DNA of 33,381 bases from Opitutus sp. GAS368. GTDB lineage: Bacteria > Verrucomicrobiota > Verrucomicrobiia > Opitutales > Opitutaceae. Of this stretch, positions 1,189-13,543 are shown one piece after another. The notes beneath the pieces were generated by a model. That model was not told where the DNA came from and did not search any database. It saw only the letters and a program-made list of their open reading frames with translations. The stretch lies in NCBI GenBank assembly GCA_945903545.1, contig CAMDOO010000036.1, positions 1 to 33,381 on the forward strand. Reading direction: 5' to 3'. Position numbers and translations under genes: made by a program. Positions within the stretch are counted from its first letter, which is position 1, and each line of letters starts with the position of its first letter.

Positions 1189-3255
<2,067 letters not shown>

Positions 3256-3933: not shown

Positions 3934-4470
3934 TCAAGCCGGTGGGGGCGGGCAATCGCAGTCGAGGCAGGACTCCTCCGCGCAAGCACCGCAGGTCTCC
4001 TCGACCTTGGCGCGGAGCGCGGCCCGGGCCCGGTGCAGCGAGACCGAGGCGTTATTGGCCGAGATGGCGAGGACCCGGGCGACGTCGGCTACTGGCCGGC
4101 CCTCCAGCTCCACGAGGCGCAGCAACTCTGCCTGGGTGGACGGGAGGGTGGAGAGGAGCGGCTCGAAGCACCGGCACAACGTGCGGTCCCCCGCGGGGGC
4201 CGGGGCCAGGGCGGGATCGCCGGCCCAGGCCTCGTCGCGCGCGGCGGCGGCCCGGCGACTGCGGACGTGGTCGATGAGGGCGTGGCGCAGGACCTGGTAA
4301 AACCAGGCATTCAATTTGGCCGGATCACGCACCTCGTTGAGGCGCTGCCAAGCCTTGAGCAGGCTTTCCTGGAGGACGTCCTCCGCCTCGGCCTCGCTGC
4401 CGAGGCGCGCCGCGAGGAAGGCCTTGAAGCGGGCGCGTTGCGCCAGGAGTTCATCGGTGGGCGGTGGCAT
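3934..4470 (-). CDS. CorE-like ECF sigma factor with Cys-rich tail
   Basis: A 178-aa sigma-70 family factor. Region 2 runs over about residues 8-72 (EAEAEDVLQESLLKAWQRL, AWFYQVLRHALIDHVR) and region 4 over about 105-155 (LPSTQAELLRLVELEG, then a helix-turn-helix ending SLHRARAALR). Unlike ordinary ECF factors it has a CXC (C99, C101) in the linker and a C-terminal tail with C160, C163, C168, C171 and C173. As I recall it, this layout is that of the CorE/ECF44 group, in which copper bound directly to the sigma factor switches it on or off without an anti-sigma. No anti-sigma gene adjoins it. It starts 12 nt after the DUF1272 gene and the copper ATPase is 0.7 kb downstream, so a copper-responsive role is likely but inferred. 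Confidence 0.85.
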   Translation of the reverse strand: MPPPTDELLAQRARFKAFLAARLGSEAEAEDVLQESLLKAWQRLNEVRDPAKLNAWFYQVLRHALIDHVRSRRAAAARDEAWAGDPALAPAPAGDRTLCRCFEPLLSTLPSTQAELLRLVELEGRPVADVARVLAISANNASVSLHRARAALRAKVEETCGACAEESCLDCDCPPPPA

Positions 4471-4482
4471 GGGGCGCGGGGC

Positions 4483-4860
4483 TCAGCGCTTTTCCGGCGG
4501 GAGCGGGCGGATCTCCGCCGAGAAGGCGGCGTGGATCGCGGGGTTCACGGGTTTGTGCTTTCGGAGCGTGCGGGCCGGGAACGCACCGAGATAATTGCCG
4601 TTCCGCCAGTTTCGCGCCGGGCGGACGGGGCGGGGGACAAAGCCGCCGCCGCAGTTCGGGCAGACGTTCCCGATGACGCGCTCGACGCAGTCCGCGCAGA
4701 AGGTGCACTCGAACGAGCAGATGCGGGCCTCGGGTGCATCGGGCGGCAGCGCCTTGTCGCAGTGCTCGCAGGTCGGCCGCAGGGCGAGGGCGTCGATGAC
4801 GTCGAACTCCTCGTCGGTGAGGTTATACTTCGCGCGGATGTCTTCCTTGGAGGTGGACAT
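4483..4860 (-). CDS. DUF1272 domain protein
   Basis: A 125-aa protein whose residues 25-80 match the DUF1272 pattern very closely: LRPTCEHCDKALPPDAPEAR, then CSFECTFCADCVERVIGNVC and PNCGGGFVPRPVRP. Eight cysteines (31, 34, 48, 52, 55, 58, 67, 70) in CxxC-type pairs suggest two metal (probably zinc) sites. It is longer than the usual stand-alone domain, with about 24 extra residues before and 45 after. The biochemical role of DUF1272 is not known to me. It is the first gene of a probable operon with the CorE-like sigma factor (12 nt gap), which links it to metal response by context only. Confidence 0.85.
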   Translation of the reverse strand: MSTSKEDIRAKYNLTDEEFDVIDALALRPTCEHCDKALPPDAPEARICSFECTFCADCVERVIGNVCPNCGGGFVPRPVRPARNWRNGNYLGAFPARTLRKHKPVNPAIHAAFSAEIRPLPPEKR

Positions 4861-5930: not shown

Positions 5931-5955
5931 TCGCGGCGTAAAGCCGCTCCTACAG
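5931..5955. repeat. REP-like repeat, family A (single)
   Basis: Contains GGCGTAAAGCC in TCGCGGCGTAAAGCCGCT followed by CCTACAG. The same unit occurs as inverted pairs at 10502-10570 and 13479-13543. It lies just before the cusA stop codon, in the tail-to-tail space with the small plus-strand gene. Confidence 0.75.
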
Positions 5956-5956
5956 G

Positions 5957-8900
5957 TCAGGACTTCAGCTGCCGTTCGCGGAGCCAGGCAAAGATGACGG
6001 GTGTCACGATCAGAATATGCACCAGCGACGACAGCATGCCGCCGACGACCGGGGCGGCGAGGGGGCGCATGACCTCGACGCCGGTGCGGGTGCTCCAGAA
6101 GATCGGCAGCAGGCCGGCCACGGCAGTCGCGACGGTCATCACCTTCGGGCGCAGGCGCAGGCGGGCGCCTTCCTTGATCGCAGCGATGAGGTCAGCGTGG
6201 GCGAACGGGCGGCTGGGAACAGCCGCCCCTACCTCGGTCATCCGCCGCTTCACGGCATCCTCGAGGTACACGACCATCACCACGCCGGTCTGGATGGCGG
6301 TGCCGAAGAGCGCGATGTAGCCGACCCAGACGGCCACGCTGAAATTGTAGCCGAGGGCCCCCTGCAGCAGCACGCCGCCGGTGAGGGCGAACGGCACGGC
6401 GAGGATGACGTGCGCGGCCTCGGCGGCCGAGTGGAAGGTCAGGCAGAGGATCAGGAAGATGATGACCAGCACCACCGGCATGATGAGCTGCAGTGTGGCC
6501 CGGGCCCGGAGCTGGTTCTCGTACTGGCCGGAGTACTCGAGGGTCATGCCGGGATCGAGTTTGACCTCCCGGGTGACGGCGGCGCGCACGTCCTCCACGA
6601 AACTCCCCAGGTCGCGGCCCGTCACATTGGCCTGTACGAAGGCGCGGAGCCGGCCGTTCTCGCTCGCGATCTCGTTCGGCCCGAGCACGCGCTGGATCGT
6701 GGCGACCTGCTGCAGCGGCACATAGGCGCCGGAGGGAAGCGGGACCGGGAGCGCGCCGAGTCGGTCGAGGTCCTCGCGGTCGGACTTCTCGAGGCGGACC
6801 TGCACCGGCCAGCGCTCACGGCCCTGGATTGTGGTGGTCGCCGTGCGTCCGCCCAGGCCGGTCTCGGCGATGGCGAGGACATCGGCAGCGCTGAGCCCCT
6901 GGCGGGTGAGCGCCTCGCGATCGACAGTGATCTCGAGGTAGGGCTTGCCCTGCACGCGCGAGGGCGAGACGCCGGCGGCACCGGGGATCCGGCTGACGAT
7001 GGCCTCGATCTCGAAGGCCTTGCGCTGGAGGGCATCGAGGTCGTCGCCGAAAATCTTGAGCCCGAGCTGGGCGCGGATGCCCGTCGAGAGCATCAACACG
7101 CGGTTCTCGATCGGCTGGAGAAAGCCGGCGGCGTAACCGGGGACCTGCGTGAGCTTTTCCGAGAGGTCGGCGATGAGCATCTCCATCGTCATGCCCGGCC
7201 GCCAGGCGGAGGTCGGCTTGAGCGTGATGGTGGTCTCAATCATCTCGGCCGGCGCCGGGTCGGTGGCGGTGTCGAAGCGGCCGAGCTTGCCGGCGACGGA
7301 GGCGACCTCGGGCGTGGCGGCGATGACCTGGTCCTGCCAGGCCATGATGCGCTTGATCTCGGTGAGCGAGGTGCTCGGCACGAGCACGGGCATGAAGAGG
7401 AGGCTGCCTTCCTGCAGGGTGGGCATGAATTCGCTGCCAAATCCGGCGGCGAGGCGGGAGGCGGAAGGCGGGAGGCGGGAGGCGATGGACCGCGGCAGGC
7501 CGAAGGCGAGCAGGGTGCACGCGGCCAGGAGCGTGGCGGCGAGGCTGAGAACGGTTTTGCGGTGCTCCAGGGCCCAGTTCAGGACGGGATCGTAGATCGC
7601 CAGCAGGAAGCGCATCAGCCAGTTGCGGTCCTCGGAGTGGAACGGCCCACGCACGAGGTAGGTGCAGAGCACGGGCACGAGCGTCACGGCGAGCACGGTG
7701 GCGCCGAGCATCGCGAAGCTCTTGGTCCAGGCCAGCGGGTGGAAGAGCTTTCCCTCCTGCCCGGTCAGCGTGAACACCGGCACGAACGCCAGGATGATGA
7801 TCGCCATCGCGAGGAAGATGGGGCGACCTACCTGCTGCGAGGCCTCGAGCGTGACCTGCCAGGTTTCGGCGGCGGTCAGGCGGGCACGGTTCGCGGGTAG
7901 GGCTGGGTCGACGACCCGGCCGGGAACGTCGGATGATCGCGGCTGACTCACCGAGTCAGCCCTACCCTCGGCCGGGCGGGCGGCCTTGGCGGCCTCGGCC
8001 TGCTCGCAGTGGCGGATGACGTTCTCGGTCATCACGATTGCGGCGTCGACGAGCACGCCGACCGCGATCGCGATGCCGGTCAGCGACATGATGTGCGACT
8101 GGATGCCGAACTCCTTCATCAGGATGAACGCGATCAGGATCGAGGCGGGGAGCGGCAGCGTGACGATCAGGATGCTGCGAAAGTGGAAGAGGAAGAGGAC
8201 GTGCATCAGCGTCACGAGGATGACCGCCTCCCAGAGCGTGTGCTTGAGCGTGTCGATCGCGCGACCGATCAGGTCGCTGCGGTCGTAGAACGGTTCGATC
8301 GTCACGCCCGCGGGCAGTCCCGGTGCGATCTGGGCGAGTTTGGCTTTCACGTCCTGGATGACCTGCCAGGCGTTTTCCCCTGAGCGCATCACGACCGTGC
8401 CGCCGACCACCTCGTGGCCGTCGACGTCCAGCGCCCCGCGGCGGTAGTCGCCGCCGATCTGGACCGTGGCGACGTCGGCCAGGCGGACGGGAACCTTGTT
8501 GCGCACGTCGAGGGCGATGCCCTCGAGGTCGGCCGCCGTCTTGATCAGGCCGACGCCGCGGACGATGAACTCCATGCCGTTTTCCTCGAGGGTGCGGCCG
8601 CCGACGTTGAGATTGTTCTTCGCGATGGTTTCCAGGACCTGGTCGAGCGTGAGCCCGAGGGCGCGGAGCTTGACGGACGAGACCTCGACCTGCCACTGGC
8701 GCACAAAGCCGCCGATACCGGCGACCTCGGCCACGCCGGGCACGGAGGCGAGCTGGAAGCGGATGAAGTAATCCTGCAGCGCGCGGAGCGAGCCGAGGTC
8801 CTGTTTTCCGGAAGTGTCCTTGAGGTAATACTGATAAACCCAGCCCAGGCCGGTGGCATCGGGCCCGAGGCGCGGGGTGACGCCGGTCGGGAGCAGGTTG

Positions 8901-9253
8901 CCCAAGTAGTTCAGTCGCTCGAGCACGCGGGTGCGGGCGAAGTAGTTGTCGATCTTGTCGTCGAAAATGACGGTGAGCAGCGAGAACCCGAACATCGAGT
9001 TGGCGCGCACGCTGCGCACGCCAGCGAGGCCCTGCAGGTTGACGGAGAGCGGATAGGTGACCTGGTCCTCGATCTCCTGCGGGCTGCGGCCCTCCCAGTC
9101 GGCGAAGACGATGACCTGGTTTTCGCTCAGGTCCGGAATCGCGTCGATCGGCACGCGGCGGATCGCGAACAAGCCCCAGCCGAAGAGGAGCAGCGTGGCT
9201 CCGAGAACCAGCAGGCGGTTCTCCATCGACCAGCGGATGAGGCGGTTGATCAT
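5957..9253 (-). CDS. cusA: CusA-type heavy-metal RND efflux pump
   Basis: A 1098-aa HME-RND transporter, the inner-membrane proton-driven pump of a tripartite Cu/Ag efflux system. Family marks: N-terminal helix then VPIDAIPDLSENQVIVFADW, the stretch PDATGLGWVYQYYL, the proton-relay helix VGVLVDAAIVMTENV, and the porter-domain NRVLMLSTGI that carries one of the CusA metal-binding methionines. The ATG at 9253 overlaps the cusB stop (ATGA), so translation is coupled. It is about 50 residues longer than typical CusA. The excess maps to three spots where REP-like or simple repeats are read in frame: 6207-6232, 7451-7484 and 7895-7967. All should lie in loops, so the protein may still work. Cu/Ag specificity rests on CusB and neighbours. 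Confidence 0.95.
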   Translation of the reverse strand: MINRLIRWSMENRLLVLGATLLLFGWGLFAIRRVPIDAIPDLSENQVIVFADWEGRSPQEIEDQVTYPLSVNLQGLAGVRSVRANSMFGFSLLTVIFDDKIDNYFARTRVLERLNYLGNLLPTGVTPRLGPDATGLGWVYQYYLKDTSGKQDLGSLRALQDYFIRFQLASVPGVAEVAGIGGFVRQWQVEVSSVKLRALGLTLDQVLETIAKNNLNVGGRTLEENGMEFIVRGVGLIKTAADLEGIALDVRNKVPVRLADVATVQIGGDYRRGALDVDGHEVVGGTVVMRSGENAWQVIQDVKAKLAQIAPGLPAGVTIEPFYDRSDLIGRAIDTLKHTLWEAVILVTLMHVLFLFHFRSILIVTLPLPASILIAFILMKEFGIQSHIMSLTGIAIAVGVLVDAAIVMTENVIRHCEQAEAAKAARPAEGRADSVSQPRSSDVPGRVVDPALPANRARLTAAETWQVTLEASQQVGRPIFLAMAIIILAFVPVFTLTGQEGKLFHPLAWTKSFAMLGATVLAVTLVPVLCTYLVRGPFHSEDRNWLMRFLLAIYDPVLNWALEHRKTVLSLAATLLAACTLLAFGLPRSIASRLPPSASRLAAGFGSEFMPTLQEGSLLFMPVLVPSTSLTEIKRIMAWQDQVIAATPEVASVAGKLGRFDTATDPAPAEMIETTITLKPTSAWRPGMTMEMLIADLSEKLTQVPGYAAGFLQPIENRVLMLSTGIRAQLGLKIFGDDLDALQRKAFEIEAIVSRIPGAAGVSPSRVQGKPYLEITVDREALTRQGLSAADVLAIAETGLGGRTATTTIQGRERWPVQVRLEKSDREDLDRLGALPVPLPSGAYVPLQQVATIQRVLGPNEIASENGRLRAFVQANVTGRDLGSFVEDVRAAVTREVKLDPGMTLEYSGQYENQLRARATLQLIMPVVLVIIFLILCLTFHSAAEAAHVILAVPFALTGGVLLQGALGYNFSVAVWVGYIALFGTAIQTGVVMVVYLEDAVKRRMTEVGAAVPSRPFAHADLIAAIKEGARLRLRPKVMTVATAVAGLLPIFWSTRTGVEVMRPLAAPVVGGMLSSLVHILIVTPVIFAWLRERQLKS
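6207..6232. repeat. REP-like hairpin inside cusA (C-terminal loop)
   Basis: Perfect stem GGGCGGCTG/CAGCCGCCC with loop GGAA, followed by CTAC, that is, the GTAGG end typical of the REP units in this window. It is translated as part of EVGAAVPSRPFAH in a loop between late membrane helices of CusA. Confidence 0.65.
7451..7484. repeat. GGAGGCG simple repeat inside cusA
   Basis: Near-tandem units of GGCGGGA/GGCGGAA. It encodes SIASRLPPSASRLAAG, residues with no counterpart in E. coli CusA just before the conserved GSEFMPTL. Similar CCTCCGCC-type low-complexity sequence lies at about 32480-32512. Confidence 0.55.
7895..7967. repeat. REP pair (family C) inside cusA
   Basis: Outer arms GGGTAGGGCTG (7895-7905) and CAGCCCTACCC (7957-7967) are perfect inverse copies. 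Within are two hairpins, GGGTC/GACCC and CTGACTC/GAGTCAG. It is read in frame as about 24 residues (RADSVSQPRSSDVPGRVVD and flanks) in the cytoplasmic loop after the proton-relay helix. A single unit of the same family lies at 31052-31082 between genes. Confidence 0.75.
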
Positions 9254-10473
9254 TGGGTTTTCGTTGCCACGACCGGCGCCTCGAACTGCGCCTGGGCGTC
9301 GAGCAGCAGTGCGGCGCGGGTCACGACCTTGTCGCCGGACGCGAGGCCGGTGATGACCTCGACGAGTTCGTCGCCGCGGCGCCCGAGGAGGAGCTTGCGC
9401 CGCTCGTAGCCGCCGCCGCCGAGTTCGACGTAGGCGACCGGGCCGGAGCCGGAGTCGAGGATGGCGGACTTGGGAATGGCGAGCACCACGGGTGCGGGCA
9501 GCCTGACCCGGCCGGTCGCGACCACGCGGTGCGGCATGTAGAGGTGCTGGTCGTCGACCTGGAAATGAACGTCGTTGAGGTTGACGCGGGCCTTGGTTGA
9601 GCGGGTGGCCTCGTTGAAGTTCGGGTCGATGAAGGCGATCGGCTCGGAGATCGTCTCGCCCGGGATCGCGTCGGTCGTCACGTCCACCATCTGCCCGATC
9701 TGGAGCAGTGCGATGTCGGTCTCGTAGACATCGAACATGAACCACATCTTGGTGAAATCGCCGATCTCGACGATCCGGTCGCCGGCGGCGAGGTACTGGC
9801 CCTCGTAGGCAAAGCGGTCGATCACGGTGCCCTCGGCGGGGGAGCGCACGACGACGGTGGCCGAGGGCTGGCGGCTCTTCTCGAGGTCGGCGATGTCCTC
9901 GGCCGTCAGCCCGAGCACGAGCAGCTTCTCGCGGACCCCGGCAAGCTCGGAGGCGGGGAACACGCGGCCGGCGCCAAGGTGTTCGACGTAAGTGCGCTGG
10001 GCGGTGAGCATCTCGGCGCTGTAGATCGTGGCGACGGGCTCGCCCTTCACGACGGCTTGGCCGGTGTAGTTGATGTTGAGCTTCTCGACCCGGCCCGGCA
10101 CACGGGCGGCGAGCACCTTGTGGCGGGTGATGTCGTCCTCGACGCGGCCCGAAACCCGCAGGGTGCGCACCAGCGGCTGGCGGGTAACCTCGGTGGTGGC
10201 GACGCCGATGGTGGTGATCTGCGACGGGCTGAGCGCGATGGTGCCGGCGGGCAGGGAGGCGGCGTCGGTGGCGCTGCGCGCGACGAGGCTCATGCCGCAG
10301 ATCGTGCACTTGGCGGGTTGGTCCGACTTGATCCACGGGTGCATCGGGCAGACGAAGACCTTCGCTGTCGCCTCGGCGGCGTGATCGTGGGCGGCGGGGC
10401 GCAGCGCGAGATAGGCGGTGCCGCCGAGGGCGGCCGCGGCGAAGAGGGCGACAGCGAGGACGGGAGTTTTCAT
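9250..10473 (-). CDS. cusB: CusB-type periplasmic adaptor with metal-binding domain
   Basis: A 407-aa membrane fusion protein linking CusA to an outer-membrane channel. Residues 4-24 form a signal/anchor helix. Next is a heavy-metal-binding domain with CPMHP (42-46) and CTICGM (56-61), common in CusB homologues outside E. coli. Then come the lipoyl/barrel halves (GRVEKLNINYTGQAVVKGEP near 120-145; AEGTVIDRFAYEGQYLAAGD near 215-235), with a helical hairpin between them. The start at 10473 is chosen because it yields the signal helix; upstream codons run through a repeat into the previous gene. Its stop overlaps the cusA start. A REP pair fills the 116 nt to the upstream lipoprotein gene, which probably belongs to the same transcript. 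Confidence 0.93.
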   Translation of the reverse strand: MKTPVLAVALFAAAALGGTAYLALRPAAHDHAAEATAKVFVCPMHPWIKSDQPAKCTICGMSLVARSATDAASLPAGTIALSPSQITTIGVATTEVTRQPLVRTLRVSGRVEDDITRHKVLAARVPGRVEKLNINYTGQAVVKGEPVATIYSAEMLTAQRTYVEHLGAGRVFPASELAGVREKLLVLGLTAEDIADLEKSRQPSATVVVRSPAEGTVIDRFAYEGQYLAAGDRIVEIGDFTKMWFMFDVYETDIALLQIGQMVDVTTDAIPGETISEPIAFIDPNFNEATRSTKARVNLNDVHFQVDDQHLYMPHRVVATGRVRLPAPVVLAIPKSAILDSGSGPVAYVELGGGGYERRKLLLGRRGDELVEVITGLASGDKVVTRAALLLDAQAQFEAPVVATKTQ

Positions 10474-10501
10474 GGGCGGTATAATGGATGGGCGATTGGC
10501 C

Positions 10502-10570
10502 GTAGGAGCGGCTTTACGCCGCGATCTTCCGGTCGCTCGGGTCAGTCGCGGCGTAAAGCCGCTCCTACAG
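10502..10570. repeat. REP pair, family A, within the cus operon
   Basis: GTAGGAGCGGCTTTACGCCG (from 10502) and its inverse (10546-10570) enclose about 21 nt. The pair sits between the cysteine-rich lipoprotein gene and cusB, on the presumed polycistronic mRNA, where such hairpins can change mRNA half-life or relative expression. Confidence 0.8.
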
Positions 10571-10589
10571 CTAATAAACCGGCCGGCGA

Positions 10590-10961
10590 TTACTTCTTCG
10601 CTTTCGCGGCGTCGATCATCGCGAGGAATTTGGCCGGGTCCTTCTTGAAGTCGGGGAGGCAGTCGCTGCAGCAGAAGCGGACCAGGCGGTCGGGCTGGCC
10701 GGCGACGCGCCACACATGGTCCAGCGTTGGCCCCATCGAGCCACCGAGCTTGTCGGAGGAGACGACGCAGGTCTGCATCGGGTAGGCGGCGATCTCCTTG
10801 GCGAGCCATTCAGGAGCAGCGGCGGTCTTGGCGACGAGGAGTTCGCCGGCCGCGGCGACGGTCGCGGTGGTCTTGGCAGGGGCGACTTCCGACTTGGAGC
10901 AGCCGACGACGGTGAGAAGAGCGGCGGCGAGGGCGAGGGGGAGCAGGGAGCGAAGGTTCAT
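10590..10961 (-). CDS. Cys-rich YHS/TRASH-like metal-binding lipoprotein
   Basis: A 123-aa lipoprotein. Residues 1-21 form a signal peptide with lipobox VVGC (Cys21). After an Ala/Thr-rich spacer comes a small cysteine domain: AAYPMQTCVVSSDKLGG (C65), then VRFCCSDCLPDFKKDPAKFL (C97, C98, C101) and a Lys-rich end. This resembles YHS/TRASH-like domains in which Cys residues bind soft metals. It is the first gene before cusB and cusA on the same strand, so I infer a periplasmic copper-binding protein feeding or buffering for the efflux pump. The divergent promoter box at 10984-11009 lies 22 nt before its ATG. Confidence 0.8.
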   Translation of the reverse strand: MNLRSLLPLALAAALLTVVGCSKSEVAPAKTTATVAAAGELLVAKTAAAPEWLAKEIAAYPMQTCVVSSDKLGGSMGPTLDHVWRVAGQPDRLVRFCCSDCLPDFKKDPAKFLAMIDAAKAKK

Positions 10962-10983
10962 GATTATGATGGGTGGTTGCAGG

Positions 10984-11009
10984 GATATATCCCGCTCCCG
11001 GTTAAATCC
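10984..11009 (-). promoter_or_regulatory. 26-nt divergent promoter box, cus side
   Basis: Read on the minus strand: GGATTT, 2 nt, CCGG, 3 nt, CGGGATATATC. It matches the plus-strand box at 11180-11205 at 21 of 26 positions, each pointing into its own operon (Cys-rich lipoprotein-cusBA here). Shared divergent elements of this kind fit a common sigma factor, most simply the ECF factor encoded at 11942. This is inference from position and similarity. Confidence 0.6.
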
Positions 11010-11013
11010 CTCG

Positions 11014-11166
11014 GACTATTTGACCGCGGATTTAACGGATTACGCGGATTTGGGAGGAGATGGGCTGCTTGAGGTACGATTCGGGGATGACTCGGCCGAG
11101 GCCTAGTCCCAGGGGATCATGGCTGAATCCGTGTAATCCGTGAAATCCGCGGTTAAAAACTGCCCT
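11014..11166. repeat. MITE-like inverted repeat
   Basis: Left part TTGACCGCGGATTTAACGG (from about 11019) and right part CCGTGAAATCCGCGGTTAAA (about 11137-11156) are inverse copies; the interior is unique. The right end GGTTAAAAACTGCC matches that of the element at 4883-5113. It separates the two divergent metal operons and leaves both promoter boxes just outside it. No coding capacity is seen. Confidence 0.65.
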
Positions 11167-11179
11167 GAGATTTTTTGCG

Positions 11180-11205
11180 GGATTTTGCCGGTGCCGGGAT
11201 ATATC
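11180..11205 (+). promoter_or_regulatory. 26-nt divergent promoter box, sigma-operon side
   Basis: GGATTT, 2 nt, CCGG, 3 nt, CGGGATATATC, ending 6 nt before the ATG at 11212. If GATATAT acts as the -10 region, transcription would begin at or very near that ATG, giving a leaderless or near-leaderless message. It is the partner of the box at 10984-11009. Confidence 0.6.
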
Positions 11206-11211
11206 AGGGTA

Positions 11212-11526
11212 ATGAAGACGAACATGAATGCCCCTGAATCGGATGGTGCTCTCTCGCAGGCCATGCAGGCGTGGGAGGTCGCGCCCCGCCGCGATCCCGG
11301 CTTCCGCGCCGCGGTGCGGGCCCGGCTGGCGGCGCCCGGTGGAGTGAGTTGGATGGAGTATCTGCGGCTTCATGCCGCGCCAGTGGCGGCCGCATGCGGA
11401 CTGGCGCTCGTCGCGGGCGGCTGGATCGGGCACAAGGAGGCAACGGCGCGGACCGCGGCCGACCGCGAGCAGCTGGCCGAGGGTTATGTGCGGGCACTTG
11501 ATGCGCGGACGATGCCGATGCCATGA
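11212..11526 (+). CDS. CnrY-like one-TM anti-sigma protein
   Basis: A 104-aa membrane protein. The cytoplasmic part (1-50) has the pattern LSQAMQAWEVAPRRDPGFRA, then VRARL, typical of short anti-sigma domains in which a W-x-V-x-P segment precedes an amphipathic helix. One membrane helix follows (HAAPVAAACGLALVAGGWIG, about 51-70), then a short periplasmic tail ending YVRALDARTMPMP. ATG at 11212 lies just after the 26-nt box; an ATG at 11224 is an alternative, and the in-frame ATG at 11140 lies inside the repeat. It overlaps the sensor gene by ATGA. Order and sizes match cnrY-cnrX-cnrH, where CnrY tethers and blocks the sigma factor. The assignment rests on context and pattern. Confidence 0.7.
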   Translation: MKTNMNAPESDGALSQAMQAWEVAPRRDPGFRAAVRARLAAPGGVSWMEYLRLHAAPVAAACGLALVAGGWIGHKEATARTAADREQLAEGYVRALDARTMPMP

Positions 11527-11945
11527 GGAACCTGCTCTACACGGCGATCCTGGCCCTGGTCATCGGCGCGGCGGCGACGGCGGGTTTCTATTTCTCGCAG
11601 CGCGATCCCGAGTTGAGCCGCGCGGCGCGAGCGCAGGACGCGATGACGTGGCTGCGGTTGGAGTTTCACCTTACGCCCGCGCAGGAGACCGCGATCACGA
11701 AACTGCAGAGCGAGTACGCGGTGGTGTGCACGGAGCATTGCCTGGCCATTCTTGACGCCCGCAAGCGTGCGGCCCCGGAACTCGCGGCGCTGGAGCAGAC
11801 CTGCACCGACTCGATGCGCAAGCATTTCACCCAGGTCGCAGCACTGATGTCGCCGGGCGAGGGCGAGCGTTACCTCAAGGAAGTCCTGCCGCGGATCGAC
11901 CGATTCGCGCACGCCGCCTCGCCCAACGTGGGGGTGACGAATTGA
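11523..11945 (+). CDS. CnrX-like periplasmic heavy-metal sensor
   Basis: A 140-aa protein with an N-terminal membrane anchor (residues 4-24) and a helical periplasmic domain of the Spy/ZraP/CnrX class: WLRLEFHLTPAQETAITKLQ, then a second helix with C69-x2-H72-C73, and a third with C94-x3-M98-x2-H101, followed by M109 in ALMSPGEGERYL. CnrX itself senses Ni/Co with His, Glu and Met; the added cysteines here fit a soft metal such as Cu(I). Start ATG overlaps the upstream stop and its TGA overlaps the TTG start of the sigma gene, so the three are translationally coupled. Family membership is fairly sure; the metal is inferred from residues and from the divergent cusBA genes. Confidence 0.85.
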   Translation: MRNLLYTAILALVIGAAATAGFYFSQRDPELSRAARAQDAMTWLRLEFHLTPAQETAITKLQSEYAVVCTEHCLAILDARKRAAPELAALEQTCTDSMRKHFTQVAALMSPGEGERYLKEVLPRIDRFAHAASPNVGVTN

Positions 11946-12493
11946 GCGAGGACGCCGAACTCATGCGCCGGGTGCAGGCCGGCGACGAGGCGGCGTTCGG
12001 GCAGTTGATGGAGCGCTGGGAGCTGCCCGTGAAGGGCCTGCTCGCGCGGCTGCTGCAGAACGTGTCGGAGGCGGAGGAGCTGGCGCAGGATACCTTTGTG
12101 CGCGTGTGGCAGCAGCGGGGGAAATTCCGCGCCGGCGCGGAGTTTCGTCCGTGGGTGTTTGCCATCGCGGTTAACCTCGCACGCCACCGCCTGCGCTGGT
12201 GGCGTCGCCGCCCGGTGGTGTCGCTCGACGCGTGGACCGAGACCGGTCGCGACGTCGCCAGCGGGGGACTTGCCCAGGGCCCGGCCCTGGAGCGCTCCGA
12301 ACGGGCTGAGTCCGTGCGGCGCGCCATCGCGGACCTGCCCGTGGACCTGCGCGAGGCGCTGGTGTTGTCGGAGTACGAGCAGCTCTCGCATTTGGAGATT
12401 GCCGCCGCGACCGGCGGCACCGCGAAGGCCGTGGAATCGCGGCTCTACCGCGCCCGGGCGTTGCTGCGGAAGAGCCTCGCGGGACGGATCTGA
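11942..12493 (+). CDS. ECF sigma factor (CnrH-like position)
   Basis: A 183-aa sigma-70 family factor: region 2 at about residues 1-80 (ELMRRVQAGDEAAFGQLMER, ELAQDTFVRVWQQR, RPWVFAIAVNLARHRLRWWR) and region 4 at about 120-178 (IADLPVDLREALVLSEYEQL, KAVESRLYRARALLRK). The linker is 35-40 residues. The start is TTG at 11942 in the overlap TTGA; an ATG at 11964 would cut the first helix and is less likely. With the anti-sigma-like and sensor genes upstream it forms a cnrYXH-type module: metal binding to the sensor would free this factor to transcribe its own operon and, through the shared box, the divergent cus operon. The last step is inference. Confidence 0.9.
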   Translation: MSEDAELMRRVQAGDEAAFGQLMERWELPVKGLLARLLQNVSEAEELAQDTFVRVWQQRGKFRAGAEFRPWVFAIAVNLARHRLRWWRRRPVVSLDAWTETGRDVASGGLAQGPALERSERAESVRRAIADLPVDLREALVLSEYEQLSHLEIAAATGGTAKAVESRLYRARALLRKSLAGRI

Positions 12494-13478: not shown

Positions 13479-13543
13479 CTGTAGGAGCGGCTTTACGCCG
13501 CGATCTCTGACGATCCTTTCGCGGGATAAACCCGCTCCTACAG
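13479..13543. repeat. REP pair, family A
   Basis: GTAGGAGCGGCTTTACGCCG (from 13481) faces a variant inverse unit, TCGCGGGATAAACCCGCTCC (13519-13538) plus TACAG. The second arm has GGGATAAACCC instead of GGCGTAAAGCC with pairing kept, as expected if hairpin structure is conserved. Confidence 0.8.

Follow-up and report, generated by a model that had tools for sequence, protein, structure and literature searches.

A predicted CnrYXH-like sigma switch with a cysteine-triad sensor beside a Cu/Ag efflux operon in Opitutus sp. GAS368

Opitutus sp. GAS368 (Opitutaceae; genome of 3.08 Mb) probably possesses a CnrYXH-like transenvelope sigma switch, with matched predicted promoters for the operon that encodes the switch and for a Cu/Ag efflux operon. 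CnrYXH is the standard example of periplasmic metal sensing relayed via a sigma factor; the methionine ligand of its sensor, CnrX, has been argued to be better suited to the periplasm than cysteine (PMC7689651). The window analyzed here is a 33,381-nt stretch of contig CAMDOO010000036.1, and contains the following features.

1189 to 3255, minus strand: Cu-type P1B ATPase (TIGR01511, 564 bits) with a CPC motif and a His-rich N-terminus
5957 to 9253, minus strand: CusA-type RND pump (TIGR00914, 1028 bits)
9250 to 10473, minus strand: CusB-type adaptor with an N-terminal heavy-metal-binding domain (HMBD; CPMHP...CTICGM)
10590 to 10961, minus strand: Cys-rich lipoprotein with a TCVVSSDKLG...FCCSDC motif, weakly YHS-like
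10984 to 11010, minus strand: predicted ECF promoter of lipoprotein-cusB-cusA, GGGATTT-N14-TATATC, predicted start ~10979
11179 to 11205, plus strand: predicted ECF promoter of the three-gene block, GGGATTT-N14-TATATC, predicted start 11210
11212 to 11526, plus strand: anti-sigma-like protein, 104 aa (alternative start ATG at 11224)
11523 to 11945, plus strand: membrane-anchored periplasmic sensor, 140 aa, predicted CnrX-like fold, C69/C73/C94 triad plus H101
11942 to 12493, plus strand: ECF sigma factor, 183 aa, TTG start, 33% identity to CnrH

A sequence-only reading of this DNA had described a cnrYXH-like order of three genes coupled by overlapping start and stop codons. Both overlaps are present (ATGA at 11523–11526 and TTGA at 11942–11945), and the order was confirmed as anti-sigma-like protein, sensor and ECF sigma factor. 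The interval that it delimited, 10590–12493, begins at the coordinate of the divergent lipoprotein and thus spans the lipoprotein gene, the intergenic region and the block. The sensor was sought in 131 other Opitutales genomes, yielding 9 carriers, and by profile search in 388 Verrucomicrobiota genomes, 66 of which are carriers; 72 loci drawn from these searches and from two contigs were read. In 71 of the 72, an anti-sigma-like open reading frame immediately precedes the sensor gene, usually overlapping it by the same 4 bases, and most have a sigma gene downstream. The recurrence of the same order in 71/72 loci places the arrangement far beyond chance.

The lipoprotein-cusB-cusA operon runs on the minus strand, divergent from the block, and cusC is absent from it. 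The adaptor matches PF16576 (E 4e-53) and CusB in the PDB (E 9e-25), and the CPMHP motif previously noted in the divergent CusBA system does lie in its HMBD (PF19335, E 1e-7). Alignment to E. coli CusA showed that the equivalents of all three metal-path methionines (M573, M623 and M672) are retained, which indicates a pump of the monovalent Cu/Ag type and bears out the earlier assignment as a Cu/Ag efflux pump. The lipoprotein (10590–10961) is probably a periplasmic copper-handling protein; its homologues adjoin the block in L020, L023, L029 and other loci (our locus numbers), and Cu-type P1B ATPase genes are co-located in several homologous loci. A hairpin repeat, GTAGGAGCGGCTTTACGCCGCGA, sits between the lipoprotein gene and cusB (10495–10575) and may affect co-transcription of the lipoprotein with cusBA. 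It recurs in the window at 5931–5953 and 13481–13541 and has 73 copies in the genome at ≤3 mismatches. The interval that separates the Cu ATPase gene from the cus operon contains a second ECF sigma gene, SigZ-like, adjoining one for a DUF1272 cysteine-rich protein (3934–4860).

The matched predicted promoters give good evidence that the sigma factor would drive both its own block and the Cu/Ag pump operon. The motif was first spotted by eye and the tests were applied afterwards. GGGATTT-N14-TAT has exactly two matches in the 3.08-Mb genome, one upstream of each divergent unit, and no matches in a reversed-genome control. Allowing one mismatch adds 44 matches elsewhere in the genome, versus 7 in the control. 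When 22 of these one-mismatch sites were scored by matrix, two exceeded a score of 14; neither precedes a convincing gene start, and they were rejected as further targets. The motif has no match upstream of the P1B ATPase gene (1189–3255) in the window genome.

The pairing of promoters was followed through the homologous loci, which are related and so are not independent observations. On the block side, the motif recurs upstream of most homologous blocks, and nearly all the close ones have it with its fixed 14-base gap. On the divergent side, leave-one-out matrices scored the predicted promoter of the window at 14.7 (p 0.003, the floor of the 300 shuffles used throughout this test). Of the 12 Opitutaceae loci linked to efflux or lipoprotein genes, eight reached the same p of 0.003, three more gave 0.010, 0.013 and 0.033, and the remaining one, L029, was not significant. 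None of the 17 control loci scored ≥14; four nevertheless had p <0.05. A looser motif, searched genome-wide in two other genera, placed 2/2 of its matches in the block-efflux intergenic region of one genome (G013) and 2/3 in that of the other (G035). It is thus very improbable that the genes are coincidental neighbors, with the sigma block controlling itself alone and the efflux operon controlled otherwise: a related clade does carry the block without a pump, but the paired identical motifs occur nowhere else in the genome and are repeated in other genera. Promoters were also sought between the sigma gene and same-strand cusBA genes downstream of it in other families, and none was convincing except in L108.

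The start of the block transcript predicted from the cnr spacing (11210) lies 2 nt before the ATG at 11212. In several homologous blocks, the predicted start falls on or next to the anti-sigma ATG, and in L021, L024, L025, L097–L099, L103 and L104 too the −10 element is close enough for a start no more than ~2 nt from that codon. Because of this proximity, the anti-sigma mRNA may be leaderless, and leaderless or near-leaderless transcripts are probable for the window and these homologues. A 32-nt inverted repeat (11019–11050 and 11126–11157, 91% complementary) lies between the two predicted promoters; with 55 genome occurrences of its core at ≤3 mismatches, it is a dispersed repeat rather than a locus-specific element.

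The sigma factor is of the ECF type (Pfam Sigma70_r2, E 1e-13; r4_2, E 2e-13) and shares 33% identity with CnrH (E 1e-18). To relate the promoters to those of CnrH, pMOL28 of Cupriavidus metallidurans was scanned with a matrix whose training set consisted solely of Verrucomicrobiota loci. The top-scoring sites ahead of cnrY and cnrC place the starts at 53286 and 54660 of the pMOL28 record, in agreement to the base with the published start sites (PMC9045368). Both scores are low (4.4 and 2.5, respectively) because the −35 letters differ, yet each is the best in its region. The exact placement of both starts argues that promoter class and wiring match those of CnrH. The kinship with cnrYXH proposed from sequence alone extends to the promoters: block and efflux operon alike are preceded by the CnrH-type GGG-N14-TAT architecture.

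The sensor gave nothing significant against Pfam and NCBIfam and by itself falls below the cut-off for PF13801 (Metal_resist), which a relative, L026, passes (35.3 versus 29.2 bits). Profile-profile comparison with CnrX gave a probability of 96% (E 4.7e-9). By this comparison the sensor is a remote CnrX homologue and a member of the CnrX (PF13801) superfamily, which upholds its earlier description as a Spy/CnrX-class periplasmic sensor, of the CnrX type. An AlphaFold model of the sensor (pLDDT 75), built from three sequences with L022–L030 and L091–L150 left out, consists of a membrane helix and four further helices. A second look at structure placed CnrX chains at the top (Z 7.5 over 86 residues, rmsd 2.3–2.4), a Z score of a size that is common for helical bundles; a Foldseek search with the model returned no significant match. 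A PDB sequence search with the sensor alone gave no clear match, and profile matches in the PDB to ZraP (E 0.04) and NccX (E 0.4) were rejected as too weak to identify it, a bicaudal-D coiled coil having scored better. The sensor resembles the Spy/ZraP/CpxP (LTXXQ) proteins in its LT/LSxxQ motif and helical hairpin, with weak profile matches to ZraP and LTXXQ, but differs in being membrane-anchored and encoded between anti-sigma and sigma genes. No relatives of the sensor were found on plasmids.

All six sensor residues listed in the sequence-only reading (C69, H72, C73, C94, M98 and H101) are present, but the conserved core is C69, C73 and C94 with H101, whereas H72 and M98 vary. The three cysteines occur together in 39/72 loci. 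In the CnrX register, H101 corresponds to H119, the only one of the five CnrX Ni ligands to be retained; M41, R45, Q62 and V105 replace H42, H46, E63 and M123. The sensor thus carries a separate Cys triad instead of a CnrX site with changed residues. In the antiparallel register that the alignment implies, C69 and C94 would lie opposite each other, at a distance of one to two turns from the site used in CnrX. A Cys3(His) site would also suit Cd, Hg or Pb, and some blocks in other families adjoin CnrA-like pumps. These observations would fit the sensing of another thiophilic or borderline metal (Cd, Zn, Pb, Hg, Ni or Co) with a pump broader than Cu/Ag. We consider this quite unlikely in the window, where the CusA methionines, the HMBD and the CPC ATPase all point to monovalent Cu/Ag.

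In the sensor tree, CnrX and those Verrucomicrobiota sensors that have the H-H-E-H-M ligands form one clade (support 100/99), from which the Cys type is excluded. By this phylogeny the Cys-type sensors make up a separate branch that extends across Verrucomicrobiota, apart from true CnrX. The window's own clade has 15 members (support 96/86), and in 14 of them an RND pump, Cu ATPase or lipoprotein lies within 10 kb. A related Opitutaceae clade of eight also has the Cys triad, yet efflux genes are absent within 10 kb; possession of the triad therefore does not strictly go with a metal pump. The expectation that the block would be found next to cusA across Verrucomicrobiota therefore held for many homologous blocks and failed for this clade (L021, L024, L025, L030, L098, L099, L103 and L104), some members of which sit beside htpG, ppk or aldehyde dehydrogenase genes. 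A paralogous Opitutaceae sensor branch of 12 loci (L119, L122, L124, L125, L127–L129, L131–L134 and L136) keeps the three-gene layout, lacks the Cys triad and has no efflux genes nearby.

The neighbors of the Cys-triad homologues without efflux genes raise the alternative that the cysteines form a thiol/redox or envelope-stress sensor, responding by disulfide formation, with the pump as just one of the targets in a wider response to oxidative stress or to thiol stress caused by copper. Periplasmic cysteines are prone to oxidation. A redox sensor nevertheless appears unlikely: the protein belongs to the CnrX metal-sensor superfamily, 14/15 members of the window clade lie near Cu/Ag efflux, Cu-ATPase or lipoprotein genes, and the window genome has the promoter motif nowhere but in the intergenic region next to the efflux operon.

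The first protein of the block has a conserved N-terminal segment (LxxxLxxWxxxPxxxPxFRxxVWxRI), one TM segment and a short periplasmic YVRxxD tail; the LxxxLxxW...P.F..VW.RI segment, the TM helix and a Y..xxD tail are kept across its family. It matched neither of the CnrY/NccY models (PF17524 and NF033790), which CnrY of pMOL28 does match as a positive control, and Pfam and NCBIfam held nothing significant. Profile comparison of the family with CnrY gave a probability of only 13%. The small TM protein consequently falls outside the CnrY families. A low-confidence AlphaFold model (pLDDT 61) has helices at residues 8–21, 31–39 and 47–99, and the two short helices before the TM helix recall those of CnrY bound to CnrH (PMC7406223). 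Proteins of the CnrY-like class have a pair of short cytoplasmic helices ahead of a single TM segment, by which they bind sigma2 and sigma4. From its position and anatomy, we infer an anti-sigma role for this protein.

In CnrYXH, CnrX with bound Co or Ni loosens CnrY and so frees CnrH (PMC7689651). For the preferred reading of the window, a metal-sensing sigma switch, we propose a comparable sequence of events. At rest, the one-TM protein would keep the ECF sigma factor at the inner membrane, with the sensor maintaining this hold. A thiophilic metal, with Cu(I) and Ag(I) the likeliest candidates, would bind to the periplasmic four-helix domain of the sensor via C69, C73, C94 and probably H101, whereupon the anti-sigma protein would release the sigma factor. 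The freed sigma factor would then act at the matched pair of promoters between its own operon and that of lipoprotein-CusB-CusA, and the latter would export the metal. The release step is proposed by analogy with CnrX, and the signal, Cu(I)/Ag(I) or else thiol redox, is inferred.

Compared with CnrYXH of C. metallidurans (Ni/Co; with NccYXH), the window shares gene order, overlapping starts, the sensor profile, the H119 equivalent, promoter architecture and start position, and an adjacent RND efflux operon. It differs in that four of the five Ni ligands give way to the Cys triad, the anti-sigma protein lies outside PF17524/NF033790, and the efflux operon encodes a Cu/Ag-type pump and runs divergently, not downstream of the block. 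Known copper-responsive ECF sigma factors are of the CorE type and work by a different mechanism (PMC3107203, PMC10141476). The copper- or Cd/Zn-dependent CorE and CorE2 of Myxococcus are likewise ECF sigma factors for metal homeostasis, but in CorE a Cys-rich C-terminal extension of the sigma factor itself does the sensing, and there is neither an anti-sigma factor nor a periplasmic sensor (PMC3107203, PMC10141476). The window sigma factor has no such Cys-rich tail and ends after region 4. The block had also been suggested to act in place of CusRS or CueR. No protein in the window genome passes the NCBI cut-offs for CueR or CusS/SilS, which were set on other phyla, and the replacement is a suggestion only.

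A wider proposal is plausible, and we hold it tentatively: a phylum-wide, CnrYXH-like branch in Verrucomicrobiota may sense Cu(I)/Ag(I) via a three-Cys site on a CnrX-type hairpin, with an anti-sigma family outside current models and often leaderless or near-leaderless mRNA. If true, ECF sigma factors would here be controlled through metal sensing by thiolates. The occurrence in another phylum of a conserved Cys-triad variant next to Cu/Ag pumps would offer a natural test of how ligand choice sets metal specificity, and the concrete promoter code would allow the regulon to be predicted in genomes whose copper regulation has received little study. In mainly open-access literature, we found no paper on a Cys-type block in Verrucomicrobiota.

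The wiring of CnrYXH to copper genes is not in itself new. CnrX-type modules on sphingomonad and Caulobacter plasmids have the same three-gene order and lie beside copAB, copCD or Cu ATPases; unlike the window sensor, theirs keep H42, H46, E63, H119 and M123 and have no Cys triad. CnrX ligands may serve a copper circuit in these modules. The term "rewired" in the sequence-only reading is misleading, because the Cys type is a separate branch and CnrYXH modules adjoin copper genes in sphingomonads as well. The plasmid-borne CnrX-type YXH blocks by copper genes are those of L151, L152, L153, L154 and L156, and in some of these similar motifs occur on both the block and the copC sides.
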